Source of the DNA: Desulfococcaceae bacterium HSG8
GTDB taxonomy: Bacteria > Desulfobacterota > Desulfobacteria > Desulfobacterales > 4be13
Direction: 5' to 3'
DNA length: 32,699 nt
Assembly (NCBI GenBank): GCA_030378015.1
Contig: JAUCGG010000042.1
Span: forward strand, 1-32,699
In this document: one piece after another, positions 8,411 to 32,328 of the stretch
How the letters are laid out: each line of letters begins with the position of its first letter
Position numbering within the stretch: position 1 is the first letter of the stretch
The notes under the pieces: generated by a model
The model's database searches: none
What the model was told of the DNA's origin: nothing
Seen by the model: only the letters and a program-made list of their open reading frames with translations
Translations under genes and position numbers: made by a program

Positions 8411-8426
8411 ACAGAAGGAGAGAATT

Positions 8427-13855: not shown

Positions 13856-13878
13856 TTTTCAGTCCCGGAGGACTGAAA
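13856..13878. repeat. Short palindrome (TTTTCAGTCC / GGACTGAAAA)
   Basis: A perfect 10-bp stem with a 4-base loop just beyond the 3' end of the sensor kinase gene. It has no T-run on the minus strand after the stem, so terminator function is uncertain. The flank ACGGGCGTATTCATAAATTG recurs at 30427 in slightly altered form. Confidence 0.4.
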
Positions 13879-13907
13879 AAAATGAGGTCAGTTCCCTCTG
13901 CAATATA

Positions 13908-16900
13908 TTAAAATATATCGTGATGCTGAATATAACCCCGAAGTGCCTTCAGAACCTCGCTGATATGTCTTTGGAAATCGGGCATCAGACCTCCGGCTTT
14001 TTCCAAGTCTTTTTTTTCGCCGGCCGTTTCCATTTGATGAGCAATGTCAGCCGCCCGGATCGCGCCGATACTCTTTGCAGCGCTTTTTATTGAATGCGCC
14101 ATTCTTTCCACGGTTTTGCTGTCATTTTGTAATATGGCGCGGTTCAGTTCATCCATTTTTTTAGGAAAATTTTTCACAACAGATTTGCATCCTTTCATTA
14201 ATACCTTTTCCTCACCGCCCATTAGCTTCAATGCATAATCCAAGTCAATACACCCGGATTTTTCTTTTTGCGTTGTTTTTTCTTTGCAGATATGGGCTAT
14301 CGCATTCAGCAGTTCTTTGGCGTCTATGGGTTTAGGGACGTATTCGTCCATACCGGCCTGCAAAAATTTTTCACGGTCTCCTTTAAGCACATGGGCTGTT
14401 AAAGCAATGATGGGGATGCTGCCAGCTTCCGAATCTTCAAGGTTTCTGATTCTCCGGGTTGCCTCCAGGCCGTCCATCACAGGCATCTGAACATCCATGA
14501 GTACAACATCGAATTTTTTCTGCCTGACAGCTTCCAGTGCCTCTTTGCCATTTTCCACGACCTGAACCGTATGCCCCTGTTTTTCAAGAAAAGGAGCGAT
14601 GATTTCCTGGTTCACATCAAAATCTTCCGCCAGCAGGATATGAAACTTTCTTTGCGGTTCGCTCACATTCGACCCAATGGGAATCCCTGCGCGTTGTTTT
14701 TCAAACTCCTCAATCTCCTCCGGTTTAATAAGATCGAACCGGGCAGTGAAAAAGAAGGTGCTGCCTCTGCCCGGTTCGCTTTCAGTCCATATTTTTCCTC
14801 CCATGAGGCGGACAAATGCCCTGCAGATAGTCAGCCCCAGTCCGGCGCCGCCGTATTTTCTTGTGTAGGAGCCATCTGACTGGGTGAATGCTTCAAAAAT
14901 GGTCTCCAGCTTATTCCCCGGGATTCCGATCCCGGTATCCTTTACCATAAAAAGAAGCGTAATTATCTGCGATGATGATTTCTCACCTCCGATCTGATCT
15001 TCTCCGCTCTTTCCCGTGGCACCGACATAAAGCGATATTTCACCGGCTTCAGTAAATTTCACAGCATTGCCAACAAGATTAACGATGATCTGGCGCAATC
15101 GGTGCGGATCACCCATGAGGCAGACAGGAAGCTGCTCTGCTATTTTGTATGATATCGTGAGGCCTTTCCGTTTTGCCTGGTAAGTGAGAATGGCAACAGC
15201 GTCATTTAATACCCGGTTCAAATCAAATGGGACAGCTTCAAGGCTGAGTTTTTCCGCCTCAATTTTGGAAAAGTCCAAAATATTGTCAATCAGGGCAAGG
15301 AGATGATCAGACGCCCTGCGCACAGTTTGCAGATACTTCCGCTGTTCACGGTTCAACTGAGTTTCGAGCGTCATACCTGTCATGCCGATAATGGCGTTCA
15401 TGGGAGTGCGGATTTCATGGCTCATGGCGGCAAGAAATTCGCCCTTGGCGCGGTTTGCATCTTCGGCGATTTTTTTCGCCTGCCTGAACACCTCTTCAGC
15501 ATGCTTACGTTCAGAAATATCTTTAAATGATCCCTGGATATAAAGCAGCTTTCCGTTTGAATCCCTGATCGCCCGACCGCTGACAGATGCCCAGAGTACG
15601 GTGCTGTCTTTGCGGCACATCTGCACTTCAAAACCTGATACCTGGCCATCCTGTTCGAGAATGGCGATAAATTCCTTCCGCTGTTCAGGATTCACGTAAA
15701 TCTGCGTTGCAATATTGAGGATTACTGAAAACATTTCATCAGGAGACTCATATCCCAATATCCTCGCCATTGCAGGATTTGCACTCAGCAGGCGGTTATC
15801 AGGCGTACTTTGAAAAATACCGTCAACCGAGTTTTCAAAGATGTCCCGGTATTTCTCTTCAGACTCCCGCAATTTTCGTTCAATATCTCTTCGTTCCCGG
15901 ATCTCCTGTTCCAACATTTTCAGGGTTTTTTCCTGTTCATCGCTTTTCTGATGAAGCGCCCGGGTTCTTTCTATGACGTTCTGTTCAAGGGTTTTATTGT
16001 ATTCTTCCAATTGCTTGTATGAATGCTTCAGCTTGCAGACCATGTCATTAAACGAGGCAGCAAGAACACCGATCTCATCATTCCTCACAATATCGGTTTG
16101 CGCTGTAAAATCGCCGTCCTTAATTTTTAAAGAAGCCTCGTAGAGCTTTTTCATGGGGTAAATAATGTTTCTGATAAAATACAGCATGGTTATCAGTGTC
16201 GAAACGATCAGAAATCCGAGGGTGATCCATGTCAGTAACGTGGTCATGCGTTTTACAGTGGAGTTTATTGCTTTGCGGGTTTCCCGGACAGAGGATAAAA
16301 TATCTGCCTCCGGGGCCGCGGTTCCGAGGCTCCATCCGGTTGAAGGCATGGGATAGAAGGAAACCAGATAGGGGGCGTTCCCGAGATCCAGGGGAAAGAC
16401 GCCGCTTTCTCCTTTAATCATTTTCCGGGTAAGTTCCCTGACTTTGGAATACGTCGTATCAGACAGCCTGATCATGGGATATCTCAGGGGGCTGAGATTT
16501 GATTTTCCTGTTCTGATGCCGAACAATCCGAGCCGATCCAGGGGAAATGCAATGATACCGCCTGCTCCGTCAATGAGAAAAGAAAATTCGTTTCTCAGCC
16601 CTTTTCCATTTGCTTTTTTCGGATTTTCAGAATCGTTAAGGATGGTGTTCACCATGGTTTCCAGTGTGATATCAATGCCGCACACACCTGAAAAATGACC
16701 AGCGTCGCTGTAAACCGGGGTCGTCGCGGTGGTCATTAATCCTTGTCCCCCGGGGTCCTGATAGATTTCAGTCCATAATGTCTTTTGCTCCGGATTGTTT
16801 TCAGGGGTCGCAATCCGGAAGAACCGGTATTCCCTGATGTCATATTCCTTTACCGGCGGTAAATAGTTGATAAGCGGTACATTGGGGTAGTATCGGGTAA

Positions 16901-17929: not shown

Positions 17930-18631
17930 TCAGAAAGTAGCCCTCTGCTCCGAGTTCTTACTCGCCATTTTTATCAGCATTTCCTTTATCTGCAACGGTT
18001 CCGCACCAGGATTCCTCTCCAAAAGCTGGGCGACCCTGGCTGTAATGTGGGCAGCGGCAAAGCTGTTCCCACAGAAGTTTTTCTCCTGCGGCAGTCCCGG
18101 GATTGCCCTGGGCCAGCCATAAGCCCCGAACTCCACCTTTTCTCCTGGATAGTAACGGATAGACGTTTCATTACATCCGCGATCCCAGCAGACACCGATA
18201 ACCGTCTCAAACACAGAGGGAAAAACCCGGTCATCCGGCGATCTTGCCGCGGCCAGCATCACGATCCCTTTGTCAAACGCGTATTGACACAGGCTTTCCA
18301 ACTCGTTTCTGTATGTCTCACGCTCTGTGCCTAAGCTTAGGTGAATAATTTTAATATTCTTATCAATGGCCCATTCCAAGGCACCCAGGAGCAGGGACAC
18401 AGGCGCGTTCAGTTCCTCGTGAAATATTTTCACCGCATACATCCGGGCAGAGGGAATCTTCTCCCTGATAATCCCGGCAATGGCTGTCCCGTGACCAATG
18501 GCGTCTCTGAAATCACCGTCCGTGGTCAGACCCTCTGAATCCGAGTAGAACGCTATGCCGCCTTCCACACCCTGCACATGGATATGCCAGGGATTTATCC
18601 CGCTGTCAATTATGGCAATATCAGGACTCAT
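17930..18631 (-). CDS. qhpE: Subtilisin-like serine protease of QHNDH biogenesis (QhpE)
   Basis: A 233-residue S8-family protease with no signal peptide, so probably cytoplasmic. Triad residues are visible: D9 (IAIIDSG), H47 (GHGTAIAG) and S190 (GNSFAAAHIT). In characterised QHNDH systems QhpE removes the QhpC leader after the thioethers form, and the linkage to qhpF here supports that role. Its ATG overlaps the end of qhpF by 11 bases, with GAGG nine bases upstream, indicating coupled translation. Oddity: where subtilisins have AAGN with the oxyanion-hole Asn, this protein reads AAARSPDD (about 127-134). This is the last gene of the locus. Confidence 0.82.
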   Translation of the reverse strand: MSPDIAIIDSGINPWHIHVQGVEGGIAFYSDSEGLTTDGDFRDAIGHGTAIAGIIREKIPSARMYAVKIFHEELNAPVSLLLGALEWAIDKNIKIIHLSLGTERETYRNELESLCQYAFDKGIVMLAAARSPDDRVFPSVFETVIGVCWDRGCNETSIRYYPGEKVEFGAYGWPRAIPGLPQEKNFCGNSFAAAHITARVAQLLERNPGAEPLQIKEMLIKMASKNSEQRATF

Positions 18632-20330
18632 TTAAATATGCCTCGGCTGTGTCTTCATAGACAAGTCCTTCTTTTTCAAAAGCAATAATTTTGTCCGCAT
18701 GTTGAATAGTTGAGAACCGATGGCTTACGATAAGAATGGTTCTGTCTTTCATCAGAAACTTTATGGTTTCTTTTAAACGCTCTTCCACGGATGCATCGAG
18801 AAAAGCAGTGGCTTCGTCCAAGATAAGAATCTTAGGATCCAGCAAAATGGAACGGGCAATACTGATTCGCTGTTTCTGTCCCCCGGAGAGGCGCACTCCC
18901 CTGTCCCCGACCACAGTATGATATCCGTCAGGAAGCGACAGGATGAACTCATGGATACATGCGGCCTTTGCTGCCGCCTCAATCGCTTCGTTACTGGCCC
19001 GGGGGTCTGAGAACCTGATATTTTCGAGGATCGAGGTATGAAACAAAAAAATATCCTGGGAGACAAGTGTTATTTGTTTTCTTAACCACCCTGTTCTGAA
19101 TCGGTTCAGATCTGTTCCGTCCAGCGTGACCTGTCCAGAGTCCGGATCGAAAAGTTTCAATATCAGATGGCAAATCGTGGTTTTTCCCACGCCACTGGGG
19201 CCGACCAGGGCGGTTATTTTCCCGGAAGGGATTTGAAATGACAGATTTCTGAGTACAGGTTCATTTTCATCATAAGCAAAAGAGACATTTTTAAAAGCGA
19301 TATCGCCTCGCACTGCTCCGTCTTCCGGAACGTGGTCGCCGTTTTCCGTGGAGACCGGCTCAATATCCAGGATTTCCCTGACCCTTGTCAAAGAGACCCT
19401 GGATTTCTGTATGACCAGGAAACCGTCCATCAGCCCTTGCAACGGAGCAAACACCCGCCCCTGATAGACAGAGAACGCGACCAGGCTCCCGATGCTCAGG
19501 GTATCTTCCAAAACAAGAAATCCGCCATATCCGAAAACGACCAGGGTGTTGATGACAGTGAACATCGTGGGCACTGAGCCGGAAAAAACCCCCATAATCT
19601 GATAGCGCAAAAGAAATTTCAGGATACCGGACTGCTTTTCTTTCAGTTTCTCGCATTCCGGTGTTTCAGCCCCGAAGGCTCTTATCAGGCTGGTATTGCT
19701 CAGGGACTCAAACAGGAAATGAGCGATATCCGCATTGCTCTCCGCGACATGCCTTGACAGTTCCATAATTTTCGGGCGTATCCTGTGAATAATATACAGC
19801 GCGGCAGGCAGGAAAGACAAACTCAGGAGCGCCATTTTCCAATTGAGCCAGAATAAGATCATCGCGGTGATAAGGCATGTGAGAAAATTGAATAGATAAT
19901 GAGGAATGGTTTCTGTCACCAGCGCCTGAACATCTGCCATGTCAGAGGCAATTCTGGAGAATATGTCGCCGATTTTCCGCTTTGTAAAAAAATTCAGAGG
20001 GATTCTCTGGAGATGTTCAAACAGGTCTTCTCTCATTTTAAACAGGATTCGAGAGGAGTACAGTGTGTAAATATAGCTGTTGCTTACCCTGATGATAAAG
20101 CTGATGATAAGCAGGGAAATCAGGGCAAGCAGAAGCGGTATCAGGATCTGGGACTGGCGATCTATAAAAACTTTATCTATCAGTATTTTGGCAAAATAGG
20201 GCTGAATCATCCCCAGGGCCGTGCTGACTCCACTGAGCAGAAAAGAGAAAATCAGAATCCGTTTGTGAGGACGGAGGTATTTGCCGATGTATTGAATTTG
20301 TTCAAGAAAAGAAACATCTTTAGATTCCAT
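18621..20330 (-). CDS. qhpF: ABC exporter of QHNDH gamma subunit (QhpF)
   Basis: A 569-residue half-type ABC exporter with the membrane domain first and the ATPase second. The membrane part (about 20-310) has six likely helices. In the ATPase: Walker A GPSGVGKTT (377-385), signature LSGGQ (481-485), Walker B ILILDE (501-506) and the switch His in VSHR (537). In aerobic QHNDH operons the homologue QhpF moves modified gamma subunit to the periplasm. The same job is inferred here because QhpC has no Sec signal. It is coupled to qhpE by overlap. A 208-bp repeat-bearing gap separates it from the MBL-fold gene upstream. Sequence alone would also fit a lipid or drug exporter; context decides. Confidence 0.85.
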   Translation of the reverse strand: MESKDVSFLEQIQYIGKYLRPHKRILIFSFLLSGVSTALGMIQPYFAKILIDKVFIDRQSQILIPLLLALISLLIISFIIRVSNSYIYTLYSSRILFKMREDLFEHLQRIPLNFFTKRKIGDIFSRIASDMADVQALVTETIPHYLFNFLTCLITAMILFWLNWKMALLSLSFLPAALYIIHRIRPKIMELSRHVAESNADIAHFLFESLSNTSLIRAFGAETPECEKLKEKQSGILKFLLRYQIMGVFSGSVPTMFTVINTLVVFGYGGFLVLEDTLSIGSLVAFSVYQGRVFAPLQGLMDGFLVIQKSRVSLTRVREILDIEPVSTENGDHVPEDGAVRGDIAFKNVSFAYDENEPVLRNLSFQIPSGKITALVGPSGVGKTTICHLILKLFDPDSGQVTLDGTDLNRFRTGWLRKQITLVSQDIFLFHTSILENIRFSDPRASNEAIEAAAKAACIHEFILSLPDGYHTVVGDRGVRLSGGQKQRISIARSILLDPKILILDEATAFLDASVEERLKETIKFLMKDRTILIVSHRFSTIQHADKIIAFEKEGLVYEDTAEAYLNES

Positions 20331-20538: not shown

Positions 20539-21339
20539 TCAGCCGGCATCAATGGTCAGGGTCTCTCCGTCATCCGGAATGAATGTTTTTGATAGCAGGC
20601 CGTTATTTTCCAGTGTCTGTTTCAGTTGTGAACGGGTCGTAGGGCAATGGTTGAGCGCCTCAAGGTGATTGGCAATGACTTTGCCGGGGGCCGCCCGGAC
20701 AAAGGTCACCACTTCCTCCAAAGGCATCAGGATCGGCCCGCCGACATCCAGGCTGGCGTTGCCTGCCGCCACCACTGCAATATCAGGTCTTAATTCTGTC
20801 AATGCCCGTTCCACCGCTTTGGTATATACGGTGTCTCCGCTGATATAGATCGAAGGCTCACCGTAAAGCCGGAGATAAAACCCCGCACCGTTCGCCATCA
20901 GATTATGAATCCAGCCGTGACCGTGCTGTGCCGGGACAGCCGTAATTTCCCCGCCTAAGAACTGTTTCGGCACCCGGTATTCCAGTGTCGTTCCGACATT
21001 GATCCCGTATTTCCCCAAGTAAGCCGCATCCTGTTCCCGGCATACAACCGGGATGTTATTTTTTCGCAGGAAAGACTCACCGGGACCATCAAGATGATCC
21101 GCATGCTGCAAAGCTCTTATTCCGAATGTCCGGCTGTGTGTGATCAGACAATGCGTTACTTTGTTCAGGATCTGTGATGCGTTATCCGGCAGCGGGACAG
21201 TGGGATTATGTTCGGGTTTGTGTCGAAAGAAGGCAAACGGAGGCAGTTTGCCTTTTCTGCTTAACATGGGGTCAATCAGGATGTGATCTACCCCTGATTC
21301 GATGACAAATGTTGCGCTTCTTAAATGATGTATTTTCAT
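20539..21339 (-). CDS. MBL-fold metal-dependent hydrolase (UlaG-like)
   Basis: A 266-residue metallo-beta-lactamase-fold protein. The metal motif is visible as H68 (LITHSR) with HADHLDG at 79-85, then PAQHGHGW (H139, H141) and a bridging Asp in YISGDT (D169). This matches UlaG-like or YtnP-like cytosolic hydrolases. There is no signal peptide. It lies inside the qhp locus on the same strand, between a U32 gene and qhpF, separated from both by repeats. It is not a standard part of the aerobic qhp operon. A link to cofactor maturation or amine-product handling would be guesswork; the substrate is unknown. Confidence 0.78.
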   Translation of the reverse strand: MKIHHLRSATFVIESGVDHILIDPMLSRKGKLPPFAFFRHKPEHNPTVPLPDNASQILNKVTHCLITHSRTFGIRALQHADHLDGPGESFLRKNNIPVVCREQDAAYLGKYGINVGTTLEYRVPKQFLGGEITAVPAQHGHGWIHNLMANGAGFYLRLYGEPSIYISGDTVYTKAVERALTELRPDIAVVAAGNASLDVGGPILMPLEEVVTFVRAAPGKVIANHLEALNHCPTTRSQLKQTLENNGLLSKTFIPDDGETLTIDAG

Positions 21340-21700
21340 TTGGTTGCGTTAATCCTCAATTTAAGTGAAACGTGATGCGTAATGCGTGAATTCACACCTC
21401 ATGTTCCGCATCTACACGTATCACGTTTCACGTTTCACGTTTCACGTATCACGTATCACGTATCACGTATCACGTTTCACGTTTCACGTTTCACGTATCA
21501 CGTATCACGTTTCACGTTTCACGTTTCACGTTTCACGTATCACGTATCACGTATCACGTATCACGTTTCACGTTTCACGTTTCACGTTTCACGTTTCACG
21601 TTTCACGTTTCACGTTTCACGTTTCACGTTTCACGTTTCACGTTTCACGCATCACGTATCACGTTTCACGTTTCACGTTTCACGTATCACGTATCACGTT
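21340..21700. other. Gap holding only the heptamer array
   Basis: The region between the UbiU-like gene and the MBL-fold gene is almost entirely tandem heptamers. There is no gene. Long + strand frames across it are an artefact of a 7-bp unit that lacks stop codons on that strand. Confidence 0.85.
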
Positions 21701-21702
21701 TC
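21366..21702. repeat. Large heptamer tandem array (TTTCACG / TATCACG)
   Basis: About 40 units of GTTTCAC or GTATCAC occupy 21414-21702. A short inverted block (GTGAAACGTGATGCGTAATG) starts at 21366, so the ends can pair. On the minus strand the first unit, TGAAACG, contributes the TGA stop of the UbiU-like gene (21703-21701). It is the same family as the array at 10853-10947. Confidence 0.92.
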
Positions 21703-22675
21703 AGCATTCCCTGAAATAACACATATATCCTTTTTCACAATATTCGGGGGTTCCCCGCACAGAACGGGCATATTCCCCGATTCTCTCATGGGTCGCCCCG
21801 TTTCTCACCTCATCCATTACTGCCCTGACCAACTGAAGACTCCTCATTTTTCGATAAAAAGACGCTTCCCTGCCCACAATCTTGACAGCTTTAACCCTCC
21901 AATCTCTGAACTGCCCGAACCAGCAGAGGCTGCACGGTCCGTTGGGAAGTCCGTCCGCCTGGAAAGTTGACCCGCAGTTGTTCTGATACCACAGGTAGTC
22001 GCGGGAATCTTTAAGTTGGGTTTCTATTTCCTCTTGGGAAATGCCATGTCCTGAGACCTCCCAGTCTGTCAGACAAAAAGCGCCGAGGGTATGAGATGTC
22101 TGGCAGAATCCCTCTTCAAAATAACAGCCGTCATTTAACGCAAAGACCTCGAATTCCATCCGGGGATTTGCCTTGGCGATTAAATGACTGATCTCTGAAA
22201 GCCTCAGTTGGCGGGGCAGGATAATCCGTTTTACGCCCAGTGAGAGATAAAAATCAACAGATTCGGAATTGAAGCAGCTTCCCAGGCTGCTCAGATGAAT
22301 CCTCACCGGAAGTTTTTCCCGGGACAGCCGCATCAGCAAATTAAAATCAGAGACAATAAGACCGTCAATGCAAAGCTCGCTGACCAGCTTTTCCGCGAGT
22401 TTCAGTAAATAACCAACGCTCCCCCTGGGGTAAAAAGGCGCGTTCAGGGTGAGATGAACTCGGACATCATTTTCGTGGGCCAGTTCCACGATATTTTGAA
22501 TATCCTCCCATGAGAAGATATTGGCTTGGGAAGGGTCTCTCCGATTCATCCAGCATCGGTTGCCAAAATGCTCTTTCCACTCCGGCGTGTTCACACCGCA
22601 ATAGAGTTCATCCGCACCGAAATGCAGGAGCATTTCCGCTTCTTTGAAGGAAGTGACCGGGGCAATAATTTTCAT
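21701..22675 (-). CDS. U32-family [4Fe-4S] protein, UbiU-like; candidate O2-independent hydroxylase
   Basis: A 324-residue U32 protein. The N-terminus MKIIAPVTSFKEAEMLLHFG followed by ADELYCG is the family barrel opening. C184 and C191, six residues apart, followed by C201 and C234, match the order of the UbiU cluster cysteines (C-x6-C, then two more). Extra cysteines are C248, C251, C313, C319 and C324. Characterised U32 proteins (UbiU/UbiV, RlhA, TrhP) are hydroxylation factors that do not need O2. The next gene upstream in the locus is UbiV-like, so the two probably form a heterodimer. The start has CGGAG eight bases upstream. Inferred role: hydroxylation of the QhpC tryptophan in the cytoplasm, replacing QhpG. 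The function is not proven. Confidence 0.82.
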   Translation of the reverse strand: MKIIAPVTSFKEAEMLLHFGADELYCGVNTPEWKEHFGNRCWMNRRDPSQANIFSWEDIQNIVELAHENDVRVHLTLNAPFYPRGSVGYLLKLAEKLVSELCIDGLIVSDFNLLMRLSREKLPVRIHLSSLGSCFNSESVDFYLSLGVKRIILPRQLRLSEISHLIAKANPRMEFEVFALNDGCYFEEGFCQTSHTLGAFCLTDWEVSGHGISQEEIETQLKDSRDYLWYQNNCGSTFQADGLPNGPCSLCWFGQFRDWRVKAVKIVGREASFYRKMRSLQLVRAVMDEVRNGATHERIGEYARSVRGTPEYCEKGYMCYFREC

Positions 22676-22748
22676 GCTACTACTCCGTTTCGGGAAAGGA
22701 TCGCTAAACTTTCAGTTTAGCAGAGGTGTTCGACATCGCAAGATATTG

Positions 22749-23284
22749 CTAAACTGAAAGTTTAGCACTCCTCTCCTGATTTATGCGGCATCCTTCAGTT
22801 TACACTTTACTGTAGAACGATTTTGCAAATCGTTTTAATTTTAAACAATTTGCAAAATTGTTCTACAGCCGGAACAAGTGTAAACTACTTTTCAGCTTTT
22901 ATGAAGGATAGCATTTATGCCAAACTGAAAGTTTAGCACTCCTCTCCTGATTTATGCGGCATCCTTCAGTTTACACTTTATACTGTAGAACGATTTTGCA
23001 AATCGTTTTAATTTTAAACAATTTGCAAAATTGTTCTACAGCCGGAACAAGTGTAAACTATAAACTACTTTTCAGCTTTTATGAAGGATGTCATTTATGC
23101 CAAACTGAAAGTTTAGCACTCCTCTCCTGATTTATGCGGCATCCTTCAGTTTACACTTTACTGTAGAACGATTTTGCAAATCGTTTTAATTTTAAACAAT
23201 TTGCAAAATTGTTCTACAGCCGGAACAAGTGTAAACTATAAACTACTTTTCAGCTTTTATGAAGGATGTCATTTATGCCAAACT
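22749..23284. repeat. Three tandem 171-180 bp units carrying the family C palindrome
   Basis: Each unit starts AAACTGAAAGTTTAGCACTC (22751, 22922 and 23102; a fourth begins at 23280 and is interrupted). It continues to CATCCTTCAGTTTACAC, the core palindrome CTGTAGAACGATTTTGC...GTTCTACAG, then GTGTAAACT and TTTTCAGCTTTTATGAAGG. The units are almost identical, which indicates recent amplification. They differ by small indels such as a doubled TATAAACTA. Confidence 0.9.
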
Positions 23285-23470
23285 CAGTAGATCGAAAAGT
23301 TTCCGGCAAACCTTGTAAACAGTGGATTCCGGGTTAAAATTAAAAAACATCCGTTTTAATTTTCCCCGGAATGACACCTTAACATACTGTCATTCCGGGA
23401 AAAATCGGAAAACGGATGTTTTCCGGCTTTAACCCGGAATCCACTGTTTGCAGAAGTTTTCGATCTACTG
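23285..23470. repeat. Family A MITE-like element, complete (186 bp)
   Basis: It runs from CAGTAGATCGAAAAGTTTCC to GAAGTTTTCGATCTACTG. The inner arms GGATTCCGGGTTAAAAT and TTTAACCCGGAATCC are inverted, around a central hairpin of GGAATGACACC / TGTCATTCC type. It is inserted in the fourth AAACTGAAAGTTTAG unit: AAACT remains on the left and GAAATTGAAAATTTAGCACTC on the right. No coding capacity. Confidence 0.85.
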
Positions 23471-23481
23471 AAATTGAAAAT

Positions 23482-24381
23482 TTAGCACTCCTTTCCAAAA
23501 ATAAATCCCTGATAGACCAGACGCAGATTTTCATGATCGGCTCTTTTAAGAAGATAACTTAACATGGATGAGGTGTAAAGATAAAAAATGGTATTACCGT
23601 TTTGAATCAGCGGAAAGGAAAAATTTTTATGTTTAAGTTCCAGCGTCATCCCATTACAGGGGCGGGGACATTTTACAGGAATAACAAATCGTTCTCCTAT
23701 TTTCTGTTTGAAAGACGCCGTCCAGCAGACTCTCCCGCTCGTGACATAGCCAAACGGAAAATAAACGGAAGTTTTAAAGTCTGATCCGGTGATCTCTCCA
23801 ACATCATTTCCATAAGGCAGCAGATCACGCTCCAGACGGGTAACAGAAAGTTCCGCCATTTTTTCCTGGAAATCAGGATGATCAAATGTGCTGTAATTTA
23901 GAAGCTCATCTGCTTCTTGGGAAATGGAAGACGACTTCTCATTGCTCGACAATCGGGGGTCTTTAAAGCCCTTGTTAAAAAGTCTGCCCGCGGACAGACG
24001 AAACAGGGGATAGTTTCTCTTCAAGTAGAAAAGAACACCCAGATCATTCACCACGACTTCCGTTTCAGGGTGTTTTTTTTCCAGATATTCAAAGAGCGGA
24101 GAACATTTCGCTATCCCCTCATCTGTGAGAACCGGCGTCAGAAGCGTAATATTCAGATTCTTTTCCTCGGCAAAGCTGAAGAAATGTTTCATTTCAGCGA
24201 GAGAGGGAATGCGATTTGAACAGAACTCATCTCCTACATAGACTCGGTTAAAAGAGTGAGATTTCTTTTCCAAGTCCTCTTTTCCGACGAAAGCCTGATC
24301 ATAAAAGTCCATCAGGTGATTTGAAACTTTGGGCAAGTCTCCTTTATTATCAGGATTTCTGAGGTGCAAGGCGATTTCCAT
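23482..24381 (-). CDS. U32-family [4Fe-4S] protein, UbiV-like; candidate O2-independent hydroxylase partner
   Basis: A 299-residue diverged U32 protein. VYVGDEFCSNR (C54) aligns with the VCSKR site of UbiV, and C219, C238 and C242 (SGRVCW, then CPRPC) match the remaining three UbiV cluster cysteines, including the C-x3-C spacing. No proteolytic motif is visible. It starts eight bases after the NapC-like cytochrome gene and shares its strand, so the two are co-transcribed. The paired UbiU-like gene follows after a repeat block. In Escherichia coli UbiU and UbiV together hydroxylate ubiquinone precursors without O2; a matching two-protein hydroxylase acting on QhpC is inferred. A menaquinone-type host would have no evident need for UbiUV itself. 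Confidence 0.78.
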   Translation of the reverse strand: MEIALHLRNPDNKGDLPKVSNHLMDFYDQAFVGKEDLEKKSHSFNRVYVGDEFCSNRIPSLAEMKHFFSFAEEKNLNITLLTPVLTDEGIAKCSPLFEYLEKKHPETEVVVNDLGVLFYLKRNYPLFRLSAGRLFNKGFKDPRLSSNEKSSSISQEADELLNYSTFDHPDFQEKMAELSVTRLERDLLPYGNDVGEITGSDFKTSVYFPFGYVTSGRVCWTASFKQKIGERFVIPVKCPRPCNGMTLELKHKNFSFPLIQNGNTIFYLYTSSMLSYLLKRADHENLRLVYQGFIFGKEC

Positions 24382-24389
24382 ATCATCAC

Positions 24390-24998
24390 TCAGCTTTGAT
24401 TTCCAGACTGGCCGGCCCTGGCTTGTTTTTCCGATGTTACTTTCTCATAAAATTTCTGCCCCTTGCGCATTTCATGATTGTGGCAGTCTTTGCAGGGCTG
24501 AGAGGCAATCCCTTTTATAAGTTTGCTGTGTATTTTAGGCTGATCTATTTCCTTATGATTTCTGGCATCTTTACATTGAAAACACCTGCTGTTCGGCACA
24601 TGGCTCCAATACCCAGGTTCTTTTCCCTCTTCCAGGAACAGGGGTTCGGGAAGGGGTTTGATCGGCTCGTTGGGATCACGTTTGAAATGTTCTGCAAGCA
24701 GCCTCACCGCCGACTTATTCATTTTCATCCATCCGTCAAATCCTGCTTCAAAATGGCAGCCTGCACAGTTGTTATGATTTTTCGCAGTACCGGATTCTCT
24801 CCACTTCTGTATGGGGGATCTCATCTCATGGCAGACCACACAGGTTTGTTCCTGGAAATACCGGATTGAAAGCTCATGAGAAGCAAGCCCTAGGACAGGG
24901 AGCAAAAGCAATATTAGAAAAACAGCGGTTTTTTTCCTGGTTTTGAAAAAACCGACGCCTTTCAGTACAAAATCCCAAATCTTTATCATATAATACAT
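24390..24998 (-). CDS. NapC/NirT/NrfH-type membrane-anchored multihaem cytochrome c
   Basis: A 202-residue protein with one N-terminal membrane anchor (about 24-42) and a periplasmic multihaem domain. Haem sites: CVVCHEM at 53-59, which has the CXXCHXM form of the NrfH first haem; CAGCH 78-82; CFQCK 139-143; CKDCH 169-173. The third has Lys where His is expected (codon AAA), a form best known from the active-site haem of NrfA, where a dedicated lyase is needed. NapC-family proteins exchange electrons between the quinone pool and periplasmic enzymes, so it is the probable redox partner of the amine dehydrogenase. AAGGAG lies eight bases before ATG. It is co-oriented with and follows qhpB. Confidence 0.85.
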   Translation of the reverse strand: MYYMIKIWDFVLKGVGFFKTRKKTAVFLILLLLPVLGLASHELSIRYFQEQTCVVCHEMRSPIQKWRESGTAKNHNNCAGCHFEAGFDGWMKMNKSAVRLLAEHFKRDPNEPIKPLPEPLFLEEGKEPGYWSHVPNSRCFQCKDARNHKEIDQPKIHSKLIKGIASQPCKDCHNHEMRKGQKFYEKVTSEKQARAGQSGNQS

Positions 24999-25105: not shown

Positions 25106-26137
25106 TTATTTAGGAAGAAGATGAGCGATAACCCCGTCTCCGGCAAGCGGAATTGTCCCAATCAGTTCAAGAGTTTCAGTATCATAAACACTCATGTCCG
25201 GTCCCGCAGGTCCCACATAAATCTTTTTTCCGTCAGATGTCAGGGTGAGCGCGTAACAGGTTCCTTTTTTCACAGGGATAGCTTTTATGGTTTCCCCGGT
25301 TTTCATATCAATCTTTACCAGTTCATCCATAACACCGTAAAGATATTTTTTATCAGGGGAAATGACATTGGAGTACTCAAACCAGACATCTTTTCCCTTC
25401 AGCGTGCTGACCTTACCGGTGTTTTTATCAACGATAAAGTATCCCATCCCTGATTCGGTATAATACGGATTGGCAAAAAGCCCGTGATCTCCGGGGTAGT
25501 TGTTTTGCCAGATCACCAAACCGTTTTTTGCCTCCTCACCCTTTTCAGGATTAAGCATCCCCATAAGTTTCTCAAGCTTTCCGGTCTTGAGATTCAGTTT
25601 ATGGATATCCAGGCCTACAAGGATAACATTATCGTTGTCATTCCTCAGCGGCACAACCCCGGTAAAGCTGCACGGGATCTGATAGTTCTTCACCATTTTT
25701 TTAGTTTTAATATCATAGACCACGAACTGGGGCGGAAGAACATTGAGCTTGGGAATATTCTGCTTCTTTTTGACAATGGCACAGCTCAGGTAGAGCTGGC
25801 TGTTATCATTCGAAACCCCAAGCCCCAGTATCGTCACCCGGCTTAACTCGGATGAAAATTTGTAAGTATCTATGAGCTTGTTGGTGGTCGTGTCTATCGC
25901 ATAAACAGAGTGAAACGCGTTTAAGTAATACCGTTTTTTATCAGGCGAAAAAACAGAATTGACGATGTAGTCATTATAAGGGATGCTTTCAACAACCGTG
26001 TCTGTCTCGCAATCAATGATCTCCAACGCGTTGACACAGGGGATATAGATGAAATCCTTAGCCATCACCGGAAAAGACAGGACTGCGATACAGCACAGCA
26101 TCATCGCCAGTATGGCTCTGTTTGTCTTGATCGTCAT
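25106..26137 (-). CDS. qhpB: Quinohemoprotein amine dehydrogenase beta subunit (QhpB)
   Basis: A 343-residue periplasmic beta-propeller. A Sec signal peptide spans about 1-26 (AILAMMLCCIAVLSF then VMA|KD). The rest consists of YVTN-like blades, with repeated patterns such as NSVFSPDKKRYYLN, YSNVISPDKKYLYGV and LTLTSDGKKIYVGPAG, ending ETLELIGTIPL. In QHNDH the beta subunit is a seven-bladed propeller that holds the CTQ-bearing gamma subunit. AAGGAG lies six bases before ATG. It is 14 bases downstream of qhpC. Size and position match the known enzyme; on sequence alone it could be any YVTN propeller. Confidence 0.87.
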   Translation of the reverse strand: MTIKTNRAILAMMLCCIAVLSFPVMAKDFIYIPCVNALEIIDCETDTVVESIPYNDYIVNSVFSPDKKRYYLNAFHSVYAIDTTTNKLIDTYKFSSELSRVTILGLGVSNDNSQLYLSCAIVKKKQNIPKLNVLPPQFVVYDIKTKKMVKNYQIPCSFTGVVPLRNDNDNVILVGLDIHKLNLKTGKLEKLMGMLNPEKGEEAKNGLVIWQNNYPGDHGLFANPYYTESGMGYFIVDKNTGKVSTLKGKDVWFEYSNVISPDKKYLYGVMDELVKIDMKTGETIKAIPVKKGTCYALTLTSDGKKIYVGPAGPDMSVYDTETLELIGTIPLAGDGVIAHLLPK

Positions 26138-26151: not shown

Positions 26152-26478
26152 TTATCTCTTAATAACGAAATTCAGGTTTCTCCAGTCCTTCTCAATAGCG
26201 CGGCACTGATTCTGAAAATCCGGGAAATTAGTGATGTTGTCCGGGGTCTGGGCGGGCCACCAGCACGGACCTGAACAACTGGTGAAGTCCCGGGCACTGG
26301 AAAGACAATTGCTCATCGGTGTTTCAGGTCGGGGATTGGTTTCCCAGCCTGTATCAAAAATCGTGGTGCATCCGATGGGCATGCTTGTCGAAATATCATC
26401 CGACATGCCAAAAACCTCTTTTTCCTCCAATTTTTTCGCCCGTTTGTTTACGGGTTTCAGAGCTTTTTTCTTTTTCAT
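26152..26478 (-). CDS. qhpC: Quinohemoprotein amine dehydrogenase gamma subunit precursor, CTQ-bearing (QhpC)
   Basis: A 108-residue ribosomally made precursor of the catalytic subunit. A basic leader (about 1-30, starting MKKKKALKPVNKRAKK) precedes the core. Core residues match the known enzyme position for position: C37-E46, C58-D64 and C72-D80 for the three thioethers, and C68 with W74 in CSGPCWWPAQ for cysteine tryptophylquinone. With a leader of about 30 residues these equal C7/E16, C27/D33, C41/D49 and C37/W43, with one inserted residue before C58. Start: GGAG ten bases upstream of this ATG; the longer frame to 26586 overlaps qhpD. An unmatched Cys is present at 92. There is no Sec signal, so export needs QhpF. 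Confidence 0.95.
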   Translation of the reverse strand: MKKKKALKPVNKRAKKLEEKEVFGMSDDISTSMPIGCTTIFDTGWETNPRPETPMSNCLSSARDFTSCSGPCWWPAQTPDNITNFPDFQNQCRAIEKDWRNLNFVIKR

Positions 26479-26516: not shown

Positions 26517-27959
26517 TCAGATGACTTGGCTGAATAACGGCGCATGCCCCCTCAGCATGGACAGCTTTTCGAGATATTCCGGGCATTCCAGCGTGAGACG
26601 GGCGTAAACTGCCAGCCCCATGTCCACCCAGGTTTTTATCCAGTCACAATAATGCAGGTTCGATTTTGTCAGACCACCTTCCCTGACCATTGCTTCATGG
26701 TAACATCCGCCCGCGCAGATCGTGCGAACCCAGCAGGTTCTGCAAAGGTTCCGCTGCCCGATTTCTGCCTGTTCTCTGAAAGTCCCGATCTTGCCCTGGT
26801 CAAACCCCTTGAAAATATCTCCCATATAACACGAGGATTCCCCGGTAAGCCGCTGGCAGATATAAAGACGCCCCTCCGGGTCCGCTGCAAAAAGCCCCAG
26901 ACCCGCGCCGCAGGGGTAGTTTTTCACTTCTCCCTCGTGCAGCACCACCAGCAGATCAATCAGATTAGTGAATCCGAAAAAATCACCCTGGCGGGCAATT
27001 TCCAGGAATTTATCCGAGAGGTTTCCGAACTGGTCAAGCAACTTGTTCATTCCGTCAGCGTTGAGCTGATAAGATGTATCCGGTGTTGTGACGGGTGCGA
27101 ACCCGGCTTCCGAGAAACCAAGATCAAGAAGATGATCCAGTATTTCAGGCACATCCCCGGAATCCCCGGCCACTGTCACCCTCGCCACCACCGGTTTTTC
27201 CCGTTCCAGCCTAAGCAGATTCTTTATCCTGGGCAATATCACCTGATAGGACGGGGTCCCGTCCGGGAAACGCCGAAAACGGTCATGCGCTTCCTCAAAT
27301 CCGTCTATGCTGACAGTGATTCCGATTTTATTCTCATGCAAAAAACGAATGGCCTTATCCGTCAGAAGGGTTCCGTTGGTGGTGATGGCAAAGCTGACTT
27401 TTTTCCCTTTTTCCAAAGCCTTGTCACGGGCATATTTGACCGCGAAGACGATGAGGTTAAAATTCATCAGGGGTTCCCCGCCAAAAAAGACCAGGATCAC
27501 TTCTTCCAAACTGCCGGAATGCTCAAACAGGAAATCAATTGCTTGCTGCGCCACTTCGGATGACATTGTGCGCCCCGTCTTCCCGGGAGCGTGTCCGTTC
27601 TGGCTGTGATAGCAGTAACGGCATCCGAGATTACAGGCTTCTGTTACGTGAAGCACCAGGGTCTTCAGGGGAATTGCGCCCTGCTCTGTTCCTGTTGTTC
27701 TGGCGAATGCCTCACTGTTTGCTTTTACAAGAACACCCCGGTTTACAATTTCCTCAAAGAATTCCCTGTTTTCTTCATCTGAACCGCTCATGCGTGAAAA
27801 GAATTCCTCCCTGCTTAATTCCCCGGCGCGGAAGCCCTGCTCCAAGATATCTTTTATATCCGGGTCCGTTTCAAAAATCGCACTGCTCCCCGTGAGAAAG
27901 AGAAAGTCATGCCCGTCCGCATGGAACATCCTGTTTTCAGCAATTCTGAATTTTTGCAT
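26517..27959 (-). CDS. qhpD: Radical SAM/SPASM thioether-forming enzyme (QhpD)
   Basis: A 480-residue peptide-modifying radical SAM enzyme. Residues 1-80 form a PqqD/RRE-like or clasp domain for leader binding. The SAM cluster motif is C109-x3-C113-x2-C116 (CNLGCRYC), with GGEP at 160-163 and TTNGTLL at 193-199. The C-terminal SPASM region has C350, C368, C377, C406, C409, C415, C419 and C438, enough for two auxiliary [4Fe-4S] clusters. QhpD is known to insert the three Cys-to-Asp/Glu thioethers in QhpC. The gene lies between qhpA (9-bp gap) and qhpC (38-bp gap), the classical order. The upstream AGGG site is moderate. It acts in the cytoplasm. Confidence 0.94.
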   Translation of the reverse strand: MQKFRIAENRMFHADGHDFLFLTGSSAIFETDPDIKDILEQGFRAGELSREEFFSRMSGSDEENREFFEEIVNRGVLVKANSEAFARTTGTEQGAIPLKTLVLHVTEACNLGCRYCYHSQNGHAPGKTGRTMSSEVAQQAIDFLFEHSGSLEEVILVFFGGEPLMNFNLIVFAVKYARDKALEKGKKVSFAITTNGTLLTDKAIRFLHENKIGITVSIDGFEEAHDRFRRFPDGTPSYQVILPRIKNLLRLEREKPVVARVTVAGDSGDVPEILDHLLDLGFSEAGFAPVTTPDTSYQLNADGMNKLLDQFGNLSDKFLEIARQGDFFGFTNLIDLLVVLHEGEVKNYPCGAGLGLFAADPEGRLYICQRLTGESSCYMGDIFKGFDQGKIGTFREQAEIGQRNLCRTCWVRTICAGGCYHEAMVREGGLTKSNLHYCDWIKTWVDMGLAVYARLTLECPEYLEKLSMLRGHAPLFSQVI

Positions 27960-27968: not shown

Positions 27969-29606
27969 CTATTTCAGATGGGTTATGAAATCCGGCACCG
28001 TGACAGCCAGCAAGGACCTGCCTTTTAACTCGCGGTCTCCGTCGGTATAAGACGCTCCTATTGCTATCAATCCGACACCTTCCCTGCGAAGTTGTCTCTC
28101 TTCGATAGGTGCGTAAGTGGTGACAGGAGTATAAAGTCCGTTTGCCACGGGAATGTCGAGATACTTCATATCATCATCATTCTCCCTGGTTTTTTCCTCT
28201 TCCAGCCACCACTTTGCATCCAAAGGCTCCAGCATAAGATCATCATCAGTGTCAGCTTTGCCATCTTTGCCAAAGTGCATTCCGTAAGCAACGAACTGAA
28301 CGCCCTGGGGCGGATATGCTGCGCCGGAGCTGACCCGGGCGCGGCCGATTGCGGGAAATATTTTGACGCTGTCTATCTTGTCAAAAATTTTGACGCCCTC
28401 TCCATATGGAAGGTCTTTTACATTCAGCGTCAGAACGCCCACAGGCACATTCGCGCCGACGTCCAGCTTGCAAACAATTTTGGAATCATCGCTCTTTTCC
28501 GCCTTAACAACTTTCACATTGGCATCTGAGAATTTAATATCTGCTTCGCTGACGGTCTCCGGCAGGTTCACTCCGAGGAGCGTCAGGGTCTGCTCTGCTC
28601 CTGCTTTTAATGCATGAGGATACGCGGCAAACACCCTGGGCGAGCCGCCTGTTTTATAGAACTTTTCATTCCCGTAGGCGTTGGAATCCTGGACAACTGT
28701 CCACCATTTTCCATTAAATCCCATCTCTTCGGCGTTAAGATCAAAAACACCTTCAATCCTTCCGGTAAGAGGCGTGGGCGCAAGCGCGTATCGCAGGTGA
28801 TACTCACTGTAAAGGGTTCCCTCTCCCTTCATCTTCAGGGTTGTTCCGCTTTGGTAGGTGACGTTCTTTTCAACAAGATATTCGTCCTCTCCCTTTTTGG
28901 AATTGGCCTCAAACGTATAGGTTCCGCTGTAATACCCGAGACCGGGCTGGTACCCGAACACCTTCCACTCCCCGCTTATATCTTGGTCATTCCTGTTTTT
29001 GATCCATTCCTGCCATTCGGGTGTGTCAAAAGCAAACAGTTTGGCGAGGGGTTCCACCAGTTCCTGGGATTCTTTGTACCAGTCCATTTCCCGCATCTGG
29101 GGGATGACCGTGGGATAATATCCCAGGTGCAGATTCCTGTTTTCCGCCCACTGGGCAGAGGTCATTTTATGGGATACGATTTTCCCGTAAGTATGACATC
29201 TCACGCAGGCTGTGTAAATTCTTTTTTCCAGATCATTTTTGGGAATTTCCCTGTATTGGCTGTTTTCATCACTGTTAAGATAAGCAACCTGGGACATCTC
29301 CCCAGGCGTCAGGCACAGGTTTTTGCTTACTTCTTTAATTACAGCGTTAAAATTTTCATCTTCGAGAGGCGCGCTGTTAATGCGGATCATTCTGTCAACA
29401 ACGACTTTCCACTCTTCAGGGGTTTTTCTTGTCTCCTCAATCACTTCCAAACGCTTATCCGGATCTGGCTTGTGACAGGCTCCGCATGTCTGCCTTACCA
29501 TAGAGCCTTCGGGAAACACGGGTTCGCCATACACAGCGGAGCATATAGCAAAAACCATACACAAGGAGATAACAGTCGCAAAACTGAACTTTATAAATAT
29601 TCTCAT
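27969..29606 (-). CDS. qhpA: Quinohemoprotein amine dehydrogenase alpha subunit, di-haem (QhpA)
   Basis: A 545-residue periplasmic subunit. The signal peptide spans about 1-27 (ATVISLCMVFAIC then AVYG|EP). Domain I holds two c-type haem sites, C41-x2-C44-H45 (CGACH) and C134-x2-C137-H138 (CVRCH). The remaining about 210-545 is beta-rich, matching the barrel and immunoglobulin-like domains II-IV (GTYTFEANSKKGEDEYLVEK and PRVFAAYPHALKAGAEQTLT are typical). The haems take electrons from CTQ of the gamma subunit during oxidation of primary amines to aldehydes. CCGGAGGA lies seven bases before ATG. It is the first gene of the locus, with a candidate sigma-54 promoter about 180 bases upstream. Confidence 0.94.
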   Translation of the reverse strand: MRIFIKFSFATVISLCMVFAICSAVYGEPVFPEGSMVRQTCGACHKPDPDKRLEVIEETRKTPEEWKVVVDRMIRINSAPLEDENFNAVIKEVSKNLCLTPGEMSQVAYLNSDENSQYREIPKNDLEKRIYTACVRCHTYGKIVSHKMTSAQWAENRNLHLGYYPTVIPQMREMDWYKESQELVEPLAKLFAFDTPEWQEWIKNRNDQDISGEWKVFGYQPGLGYYSGTYTFEANSKKGEDEYLVEKNVTYQSGTTLKMKGEGTLYSEYHLRYALAPTPLTGRIEGVFDLNAEEMGFNGKWWTVVQDSNAYGNEKFYKTGGSPRVFAAYPHALKAGAEQTLTLLGVNLPETVSEADIKFSDANVKVVKAEKSDDSKIVCKLDVGANVPVGVLTLNVKDLPYGEGVKIFDKIDSVKIFPAIGRARVSSGAAYPPQGVQFVAYGMHFGKDGKADTDDDLMLEPLDAKWWLEEEKTRENDDDMKYLDIPVANGLYTPVTTYAPIEERQLRREGVGLIAIGASYTDGDRELKGRSLLAVTVPDFITHLK

Positions 29607-30844: not shown

Positions 30845-30906
30845 ACTATTCAACGAGGCTGATGAACAGGTGAAAACTGAGTCGTTACCAAAAGGAGATG
30901 ATCAAG

Positions 30907-32328
30907 ATGGCAAAGATTTTGATTGTTGATGATGATGAAATGTTTTATGACCCTTTTTCCTTTTATATTGAGGAATTAGGTCATAATTGTGAAATAGCTG
31001 AAAACTTTCATGACGGGCTGAATATGGTTCATAAAAACGATTATGATATCGTTTTCCTAGATGTTATCTTACCTGATATCAGCGGGCTTGAAGGCATTGG
31101 CAGGCTTAAAAAAGCACCTTCATCGCCTGAGGTCATCATTATTACCGGGCAGGGAGATTCTTACGGTGCTGAAAAAGCCCTGAAAAACGGGGCTTGGGAT
31201 TATCTTGAAAAGCCTCCTTCATACACGAATATCAAGCTCCTCGTGGGCCGGGCTTTGGAATACAGGGAAAAAAAACTTCAGTTCTGTGAACAAAAGGTGT
31301 TAAACAGGGAATTTATTATTGGGAATGACCCGAAACTGAGGGATTGCCTGGAGGTTATCGCCAGGGCCGCGGGCAATGACGGGAGCGTTTTCATCACCGG
31401 GGAAACAGGAACAGGAAAAGAACTGATGGCCAAGGCTGTCCATATAAACAGCCCGAGAGCAAAACGAAATTTTGTCACAGTGGATTGTACAAATATTCCT
31501 GTTAATCTGGCAGAAAGCCTGCTATTCGGTCATACCAAAGGCAGTTTTACAGGAGCGCATTCTGATCAGGAAGGATTGATCAGGCAGGCTGAGGGCGGGA
31601 CCCTGTTTCTTGATGAAGTCGGCGATCTTCATCCTTCCGTGCAAAAATCCCTGTTAAGTATATTGCAGAATAAGAAATTCCGTCCCCTGGGCGCAAAAAA
31701 AGAGGTGATCTGTAATTTTCGTGTTATCTCAGCTACTAACAGAGATTTAAAAAAAATGGTTAAGGCAGGCCATTTTCGGAAAGATCTGTATTTCCGACTT
31801 GTTGCCTTCCATGTTCACGTTCCCTCATTGAGAAACCGTGCGGATGATATAAAACTGCTGATGAATCACTACATATATATAATCTGCGACGAATTCGGAA
31901 TCAGCACAAAAGGCGTTTCCAAAGACTTCACAGACAGCCTGATGCGTTATGAGTGGTCCGGAAACATAAGAGAACTGACAAACGTGCTTCATGCCACCAT
32001 TGCCAATGCGATGAACGAACCGACATTATATCCGCACCATCTGCCAGTGGATATGAGGATTCATTTTTGCAAAGCAGGGATAAAGAAAAAAGAGAAGCAT
32101 GAGGAAAATAACGCCCCGGCTGTAACCGTGGAGATAAATCGGACAAAATTTCCAGAACTCAGGGAATTCCGCAAACTTGCCGAATCAGAATACTTGGATG
32201 ACCTGATAAAACTGTCAGAAAGCAATGTAAGCAGAGCATGCCGTTTGTCCGGGGCGTCACGTTCCGGACTCTATCAGTTATTGGAAAAGCACGGCAAGCG
32301 GATGAAAAGAGGAACAAAGAGAGATTGA
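30907..32328 (+). CDS. Sigma-54-dependent response regulator (NtrC family)
   Basis: A 473-residue activator. Receiver domain 1-120: acidic pocket DDDE at 8-11, phospho-acceptor D52 in VFLDVILPDISG, and K102 in EKPP. The sigma-54 AAA+ domain begins about 135: Walker A GETGTGKE 165-172, the sigma-54 contact loop GSFTGA 212-217, and Walker B LFLDEVGD 233-240. It ends in a Fis-type helix-turn-helix (SNVSRACRLSGASRSGLYQL). The ATG at 30907 is preferred because AAAGGAG lies nine bases upstream; the ATG at 30898 abuts that site. It is divergent from the qhp locus, which has a sigma-54-like promoter, so it is the probable regulator. Its kinase is not identified. Confidence 0.92.
   Translation: MAKILIVDDDEMFYDPFSFYIEELGHNCEIAENFHDGLNMVHKNDYDIVFLDVILPDISGLEGIGRLKKAPSSPEVIIITGQGDSYGAEKALKNGAWDYLEKPPSYTNIKLLVGRALEYREKKLQFCEQKVLNREFIIGNDPKLRDCLEVIARAAGNDGSVFITGETGTGKELMAKAVHINSPRAKRNFVTVDCTNIPVNLAESLLFGHTKGSFTGAHSDQEGLIRQAEGGTLFLDEVGDLHPSVQKSLLSILQNKKFRPLGAKKEVICNFRVISATNRDLKKMVKAGHFRKDLYFRLVAFHVHVPSLRNRADDIKLLMNHYIYIICDEFGISTKGVSKDFTDSLMRYEWSGNIRELTNVLHATIANAMNEPTLYPHHLPVDMRIHFCKAGIKKKEKHEENNAPAVTVEINRTKFPELREFRKLAESEYLDDLIKLSESNVSRACRLSGASRSGLYQLLEKHGKRMKRGTKRD

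Follow-up and report, generated by a model that had tools for sequence, protein, structure and literature searches.

UbiU/UbiV-like U32 proteins as a probable substitute for QhpG in quinohemoprotein amine dehydrogenase loci

The maturation of quinohemoprotein amine dehydrogenase (QHNDH), an enzyme with the cofactor cysteine tryptophylquinone (CTQ), has been described for Paracoccus and Pseudomonas, with the proteins QhpA-G and QhpR. According to the report on QhpG (PMC7876137), this enzyme puts two oxygens from O2 on Trp43 of the crosslinked QhpC, within a QhpC-QhpD-QhpG complex. Then, could the same tryptophan be hydroxylated without O2? Here, we analyse a stretch of 32,699 nucleotides from Desulfococcaceae bacterium HSG8 (contig JAUCGG010000042.1), termed the window at its full length, in which qhp genes are accompanied by two genes encoding U32-like proteins, U32a and U32b. 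Judged by sequence and gene context, it is likely that U32a and U32b form a UbiU-UbiV-like Fe-S heterodimer, which replaces QhpG and dihydroxylates the tryptophan of QhpC without O2.

UbiU and UbiV, another of the closest described systems, are encoded by a gene pair, and each protein has four cysteines that are ligands of a cluster (PMC6747719). As reported in PMC10470549, UbiUV hydroxylates an aromatic ring with oxygen that does not come from O2, even in air. A review (PMC11574389) describes the U32 proteins of known function as O2-independent hydroxylases, among which UbiU, RlhA and TrhP act on quinone or RNA. Prephenate is named there as the donor of the oxygen in ubiquinone synthesis and possibly throughout the U32 family.

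An earlier note on this DNA, made from the letters alone, had read QhpA, D, C, B, F and E in the window, together with two U32 open reading frames (ORFs) on one strand, and had seen no QhpG. This reading is confirmed by NCBIfam and Pfam models for the six qhp genes, which all lie on the strand of the two U32 genes, and no ORF in the window matches the QhpG profile. The parts of the system are as follows.

27969..29606, minus strand: QhpA, the alpha subunit of quinohemoprotein amine dehydrogenase (TIGR03908, 312 bits against a cut-off of 274; four Pfam alpha-subunit domains; two CxxCH haem motifs)
26517..27959, minus strand: QhpD, the radical SAM/SPASM maturase (TIGR03906, best model, full length, 428 bits, below the cut-off of 453; CxxxCxxC at residues 109-116)
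26152..26478, minus strand: QhpC, the gamma subunit with leader, the CTQ substrate peptide (NF037958, 124 bits against a cut-off of 50)
25106..26137, minus strand: QhpB, the beta subunit, a beta-propeller (TIGR03907, 115 bits over 36-335, below the cut-off of 223)
23482..24381, minus strand: U32b, UbiV-like, 299 aa, predicted second half of the hydroxylase (four invariant cysteines)
21701..22675, minus strand: U32a, UbiU-like U32 protein, 324 aa, predicted first half of the hydroxylase (UbiU ligands and four more conserved cysteines)
18621..20330, minus strand: QhpF, the ABC exporter (ABC_membrane and ABC_tran, without a specific NCBIfam model)
17930..18631, minus strand: QhpE, the subtilisin-like leader protease (NF049966, 168 bits against a cut-off of 165)

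All three subunits by which a CTQ-type amine dehydrogenase is recognised are present: alpha and gamma score over their NCBIfam cut-offs, while beta is matched along its length under the cut-off, and its relatives occupy the same place in related loci. QhpD clusters with the QhpDs of other qhp loci and would form Cys-Asp/Glu thioethers in QhpC, whose start was moved from 26586 to near 26478 based on the leader alignment with Paracoccus QhpC. In close qhp loci with a complete qhpF, the relatives of QhpF score 734-878 bits. The locus resembles the Paracoccus and Pseudomonas system in the structural subunits, QhpD, QhpF, QhpE and the modified residues of QhpC. However, no QhpG was found here, and the U32a/U32b pair and, in the close group of loci, a NapC/NrfH-like tetraheme cytochrome are present.

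The substrate residues were compared in 27 QhpC rows, 24 from U32-type loci (L019 and L053 being one genome) and three from QhpG-type loci. All of them retain the cofactor tryptophan and the three thioether pairs, and 26 retain the CTQ cysteine; the QhpC of the window retains Cys37 and Trp43 of CTQ as well as all three Cys-Asp/Glu cross-link pairs. Since these residues are kept, the hydroxylation step of QhpG is still needed in U32-type organisms, where the known enzyme was not found. The remaining row, from L049 (genome G344, ORF 5692-7440), has Thr at the Cys37 position and keeps the tryptophan and the cross-link residues, and its quinone might be without the thioether.

With a profile of three QhpG proteins, 15 genomes with QhpC (the window's own and 14 others) were searched, and QhpG was found in none of them. 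The qhpG homologue elsewhere in this genome and its relatives, which would have counted against the earlier note, is thus not seen among these 15. Weak partial matches occur in 12 of the 15, the best with 32.6 bits over 145 of 437 positions; the three proteins themselves score 634-817 bits, which is no independent control because they built the profile. As a check of reach, a tblastn search with one of the three recovers QhpG in both Paracoccus and Leisingera (31-35% identity, E 2e-21 or better). Taken as whole ORFs, the best partial matches of five genomes turn out to be other flavoproteins, three geranylgeranyl-reductase-like, one FixC-like and one of GMC type, which reach 25-106 bits on the NCBIfam model of QhpG (NF049967, cut-off 240), where Cupriavidus QhpG has 558. 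In 30 qhp-type loci, the window included, no ORF matches the profile even at E 10. Six of the 15 genomes have a completeness of 90% or more and a contamination of 5% or less; the window's genome (6.0 Mb) is 81.5% complete, and many relatives are draft metagenome-assembled genomes (MAGs). A flavin monooxygenase elsewhere in the window's genome was also considered and rejected: the eight FAD_binding_3 matches, seven of them over the Pfam cut-off, are short FAD-binding stretches that each span 30-38 residues of the 349-position model, and the genome gives no match to the QhpG profile.

To what extent does the pair accompany the qhp genes? Among 395 Desulfobacterota genomes, the QhpC model PF08992 matches 10, nine of them over the cut-off; the tenth, in G381, a 21-bit match under the cut-off with two stops, was dropped. 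Both U32a and U32b are present in all nine. U32b-like matches occur in 41 of the 395 genomes, hence nine out of nine would arise by chance with a probability of 6e-10, assuming independent genomes, which these are not. In G077 and G200 the pair and QhpC lie on different contigs, and the U32b of G200 is a contig-end fragment of 37 bits. Beyond Desulfobacterota, the survey covered the phylum of G395 (three genomes, one with QhpC). A scan of GTDB genome contigs for the U32b family yielded 22 loci, of which 18 (L014-L031) are close relatives. Qhp genes are also found in 17 of these 18, the exception being L021, a 3.1-kb contig with the pair only, and U32a adjoins U32b in 15. The other four loci, from Omnitrophota and Elusimicrobia, contain a distant pair and no qhp genes, and no QhpC match was found in their genomes. 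In loci of two deeply split groups, the pair sits between qhpB (or the cytochrome gene) and qhpF-qhpE.

The co-occurrence check proposed in the earlier note has therefore come out in its favour, with the pair in nine of nine QhpC genomes and QhpG found in none of 15, and together these results support its suggestion that the pair acts on the tryptophan in place of QhpG, although the hydroxylation itself is deduced. That the pair tracks qhpC holds for these nine genomes and for 17 of the 18 close loci, but not for the distant paralogs, which occur outside qhp loci. No other candidate recurs: the families found in at least four of 26 qhp loci are regulators, antisense frames, an aldehyde:ferredoxin oxidoreductase and an AMP-binding enzyme, where one member of each named family was scanned by Pfam. 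Note that the longest non-overlapping ORFs were kept in this test, which recovered QhpC in 11 and U32a in 12 of the 26 loci, and a short gene could be missed.

The cysteines that the earlier note assigned to the UbiV and UbiU patterns had been correctly read. In U32b, C54, C219, C238 and C242 are invariant in 45 of 45 aligned rows (the window and 44 of the 120 relatives listed, among 231 found) and align with the [4Fe-4S] ligands C39, C180, C193 and C197 of UbiV. In U32a, C184, C191, C201 and C234 are invariant in 41 of 41 rows (the window and 40 of the 120 relatives listed, among 628 found) and align with the [4Fe-4S] ligands C169, C176, C193 and C232 of UbiU. A U32a relative occurs in Desulfobacula toluolica and a U32b relative in D. 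phenolica, and in Desulforhabdus sp. TSK (L019) the locus is complete. The U32b alignment leaves out L118 (a fragment), a second weak ORF of L026 and identical copies, and the tree also L124 (truncated). In addition, C248 and C251 of U32a are present in 34 of 35 U32a relatives; together with C313 and C319 they could hold a second cluster in the qhp type.

As for the family, the description of both as U32 proteins stands for U32a, which matches PF01136 (97.2 bits against a gathering score of 22.4), but not for U32b, which this model does not recognise. U32a scores 78.3 bits on the NCBIfam equivalog of UbiU, far under the cut-off of 440, and 70.2 bits on that of TrhP, where the cut-off of 534 is not reached. 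For U32b, one of 45 rows matches the U32 model PRK15447 (E 7e-4). A wider U32b profile meets the UbiV profile at E 1.7e-5 with a probability of 79%, whereas the comparison with UbiV alone is weak (probability 6%). A sequence search for solved relatives of U32a, U32b, UbiU and UbiV gave no meaningful match, and the fold comparison was consequently run on predicted structures; Foldseek gave no match at E 0.001 or below for the U32b model, with 5d88 at probability 1.00 and E 5.7e-3. A kinship of U32b to the family is suggested by the cysteines, the profile comparison and the predicted barrel. Like UbiU-UbiV, the two proteins are a gene pair with four cluster-ligand cysteines each in aligned columns; unlike UbiU-UbiV, U32a stays far under the cut-off of the UbiU model and U32b is hardly picked up by the UbiV and U32 models, U32a has extra conserved cysteines, the neighbours are qhp genes and the substrate is likely a protein residue. 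RlhA and TrhP share with them the U32 family and its prephenate link, as the review presents it (PMC11574389), but act on RNA, and U32a reaches 70 of the 534 bits of the TrhP model.

In the U32a tree, 22 qhp-type rows (including L021 and L118, short contigs without any other qhp gene) lie on one side of a branch, with 13 other relatives and UbiU opposite. C234 is found in 22 of the 22 qhp-type rows and C313 in 21, and these are missing from the 13 other relatives. In the QhpD tree, for which three QhpG-type rows served as outgroup, three groups are supported: the QhpG type and the U32 types, close and distant. The two qhp-linked groups come together in the U32a tree, while their sisterhood is undecided in the U32b tree. 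Based on the U32a and QhpD trees, the link between the pair and qhp genes is likely old and has been kept through deep divergence.

Other U32-like pairs of Desulfobacterota and Omnitrophota belong to the same two families and have the same four U32b cysteines, but they are without C234 and C313 of U32a and no qhp genes were seen beside them. Their settings are diverse. For example, the order LipB-LipA-U32b-U32a-DnaJ is found in L102 (G209, by Pfam) and L103 (G104, by eye), LipA, the pair and DnaJ in L105 (G133), and LipB, LipA and U32b at a contig end in L100 (G071), while in L098 (G034) no LipBA gene accompanies the pair within the stretch read. Another U32b-like copy lies beside a Ham1 gene in L101 (by Pfam) and L099 (by eye). 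In L032-L034 (Omnitrophota), around 7400-16800, a U32a/U32b-like pair is near radical SAM genes, with no qhp genes, and L032 also contains a B12-binding radical SAM gene (by Pfam).

For contrast, 27 plasmid records with a clear QhpD were examined, all of them Pseudomonadota plasmids (Paracoccus, Leisingera, Pseudomonas, Cupriavidus, Novosphingobium). QhpD matched 34 plasmid records, of which 26 at 56% identity or more and Novosphingobium (38%) were taken, and seven at 33-36% (Mycetohabitans, Rhizobium, Bradyrhizobium) were left out. QhpG lies no more than 3.8 kb from QhpD in 26 of the 27, and U32b is found in none of the 27, its sole match in the plasmid collection being one of 34% coverage in Roseburia. 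U32a alone has weak matches (below 60% identity) in 188 plasmid records; the 10 inspected are at 25-27% and named U32 peptidase or YegQ. Some of the contrast hosts denitrify, and the Paracoccus pantotrophus record states a denitrifying source. A QhpG-like protein of 54% identity was also seen outside any qhp locus, on an Azoarcus plasmid. The QhpD of Novosphingobium is the top-ranked plasmid match to the window's QhpD (38%). On this plasmid of Novosphingobium sp. RL4 (L148, 7067-15336), the qhp locus consists of A, D, C, F, E and a weakly matched B, without a U32 protein. At the place where a QhpG might be expected, an ORF (11553-12911) resembles QhpG weakly, with 32.5 bits and 31% identity along 83 residues, and has no Pfam match; L148 is possibly a third type or has a divergent QhpG.

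Two further genes of the window lie in the same minus-strand run, the order of which is A-D-C-B-tetraheme cytochrome-U32b-U32a-metallo-beta-lactamase-fold gene-F-E.

24390..24998, minus strand: NapC/NrfH-like tetraheme cytochrome (PF03264, 31.5 bits, over the gathering score)
20539..21339, minus strand: metallo-beta-lactamase-fold protein (PF12706 match)

The intergenic gaps from QhpA through U32b are 8 to 107 bp. The tetraheme cytochrome, likely the electron acceptor of the dehydrogenase, has four haem motifs in 18 rows (the window and 17 loci, where two locus pairs share one genome each). The third motif is CxxCK in 13 of the 18, the window included, and CxxCH in L014, L019/L053, L020 and L056. 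The stretch between U32b and U32a contains three 178-bp repeat units with inverted repeats (22747-23284), and a 41-copy array of the 7-bp unit CACGTTT (21415-21703) starts at the end of U32a. Upstream of qhpA, a sigma-54 response regulator is encoded on the plus strand (30898-32328), with relatives in L019, L031, L050 and L051; it is a possible regulator of the qhp genes. The aldehyde:ferredoxin oxidoreductase is found near qhp genes in five of 26 loci (L018, 1151-2899; L027, L050, L054 and L055) and the AMP-binding enzyme in four of 26, which fits an anaerobic breakdown from amine through aldehyde and acid to the CoA-ester. Such dehydrogenases reportedly start anaerobic amine degradation in Aromatoleum aromaticum, as the title of a 2019 paper has it. 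In L030 (CP070697.1, 5254-7130), QhpA is split into two frames by an in-frame stop with an N run just before, likely assembly trouble.

Based on the genomes, the following order of events may be proposed. QhpD would first make the thioethers in the leader-bearing QhpC. The U32 pair, with one [4Fe-4S] cluster per half, would then bind the QhpC-QhpD complex as QhpG does, and would add hydroxyl groups to C6 and C7 of the tryptophan matching Trp43 of Paracoccus. For the oxygen, a donor other than O2 is assumed, and prephenate, named for the U32 family, is a candidate. Oxidation and attachment of Cys37 would yield CTQ, QhpF would export and QhpE trim the subunit, and the tetraheme cytochrome would hand the electrons from QhpA on to an anaerobic chain. 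That the tryptophan is hydroxylated, from which donor, and with two oxygens is inferred from genomes only. In a wider form, which we favour with less confidence, U32a-U32b may be the first U32 enzyme acting on a protein, a two-cluster Fe-S hydroxylase that places two oxygens of prephenate onto one tryptophan of a peptide crosslinked by a radical SAM enzyme. It would belong to a wide set of paired U32 hydroxylases in anaerobes, with different targets for the branches that neighbour LipA, MoeA or B12-radical SAM genes.

Several observations weigh against a QhpG-replacing hydroxylase. In the window itself, U32b and U32a are separated by an 806-bp stretch. Among the close loci, L014 ends just past U32b, the best U32a match in its genome having 58 bits; L020 has U32b without U32a in the locus or in its genome G410 (best match 68 bits); and in L030 a 100-base N run covers the end of U32b, and a partial U32a lies about 350 kb away. 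G001 has a close pair on a 3.1-kb contig and no QhpC match. None of the 45 U32b rows matches PF01136 at E up to 1, and the NCBIfam UbiV model matches one of the 45 (E 0.0024) and not the window's protein. In the fold comparisons, CutC, and for U32a also pyruvate kinase, score equal to 5d88. The support of the U32a branch is 94/95, just below the starred level of the tool. In 31 of the 41 U32b-positive Desulfobacterota genomes there are only distant members without qhp, some at E 7e-4. Since the two families occur in several settings, the assignment rests on gene context and clade, not on fold. Oxygen is a further point: 15 of the 21 qhp-type genomes have a match above the cut-off to the COX1 family of heme-copper oxidases, and O2 is thus not excluded for many hosts. 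Finally, the Novosphingobium locus has neither the pair nor a clear QhpG and fits neither type cleanly, and because its ORF scores 32.5 bits, the partial genome matches are in a range that a divergent QhpG could have.

The last point leads to the explanation that a QhpG or another O2-dependent hydroxylase is hidden in the missing fifth of the window's genome, in unsampled parts or by divergence, and acts during brief contact with O2. The incomplete window genome and draft MAGs would allow this, as would the Novosphingobium ORF, but 15 genomes, six of them of high quality as given above, yield partial matches at most, those followed up in five genomes being other flavoproteins. Moreover, known QhpG lies close to QhpD, yet a search of 30 qhp-type loci at E 10 gave no match either to the QhpG profile or to the Novosphingobium ORF, which leaves this explanation with hardly any probability. 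The metallo-beta-lactamase-fold protein at 20539-21339 might instead be a PqqB-like tryptophan hydroxylase. PqqB, which has this fold, hydroxylates tyrosine in pyrroloquinoline quinone (PQQ) synthesis, and the gene lies in the same strand run as the qhp genes with its PF12706 match. However, the protein has no relative in 29 other qhp-type loci (tblastn at E 1e-3; phmmer), its best NCBIfam model is the hydrolase PRK00685, under cut-off, and its gene lies next to repeats, separated by 361 and 208 bp from the adjacent genes. As a general explanation it is refuted by its absence from the 29 loci, and we regard it as extremely unlikely.

It is also conceivable that the pair is a mere neighbour, hydroxylating an RNA base, a quinone or a small molecule without a role in CTQ formation, as UbiU, RlhA and TrhP act on quinone or RNA in the account of PMC11574389, and distant paralogs adjoin LipB-LipA, Ham1, MoeA or radical SAM/B12 genes. 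We regard this as improbable, given that the close family occurs with qhp genes in 17 of 18 loci, that the position between B/cytochrome and F-E recurs in two deeply split groups, and that C234 and C313, shared by 22 and 21 of the 22 qhp-type U32a rows, are missing from the 13 other relatives. Less improbable, though still unlikely, is that the pair has a different role in the qhp system (for example an oxidation of another kind, the delivery of Fe-S clusters or the supply of QhpD with electrons), and that QhpD, the cytochrome with peroxide or another protein hydroxylates the tryptophan. MauG acts with peroxide in the formation of tryptophan tryptophylquinone; here, a tetraheme cytochrome gene is frequent among the close loci, four cysteines of U32a are conserved in addition to the UbiU ligands, and the hydroxylase role of the pair is drawn from sequence. 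Yet no tetraheme gene was seen in the distant qhp loci with the pair (L049, L050, L052, L054, L055), no other candidate gene recurs, and the pair would cover the only step for which no enzyme was found. The U32 proteins of known function, moreover, are O2-independent hydroxylases according to PMC11574389. A U32 pair that hydroxylates the QhpC tryptophan in place of QhpG is thus the reading that we prefer.

The earlier note took its host to be an anaerobe. For the window's own genome this is consistent with a dsrA (sulfite reductase gene) match of 599 bits and no COX1 match, as expected of a sulfate reducer; for the qhp-type genomes with a COX1-family match, strict anaerobiosis cannot be assumed. 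The dsrA gene is over the cut-off in 14 of the 21 qhp-type genomes. In the distant group (G021, G176, G200, G223, G244, G344), dsrA is over the cut-off in none of six and COX1-family in five, and the pair is accordingly not confined to strict anaerobes, judged by genes.

In the open-access literature, no paper was found that links U32 proteins with QHNDH or CTQ, in agreement with the earlier note, which considered the link undescribed. The claim reaches beyond a single locus: it would be a variant of the known QHNDH maturation and, if confirmed, a new kind of U32 substrate. If the U32 pair does perform the tryptophan step, the formation of CTQ without O2 would be explained, and a family now annotated as 'putative protease' or 'hypothetical protein' would consist of cofactor-building enzymes. 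U32 chemistry would then extend from quinones and RNA to a protein side chain, with QhpC as a soluble small protein substrate for studying the O2-independent U32 mechanism, and sulfate reducers and other anaerobes would be able to build a tryptophylquinone enzyme.

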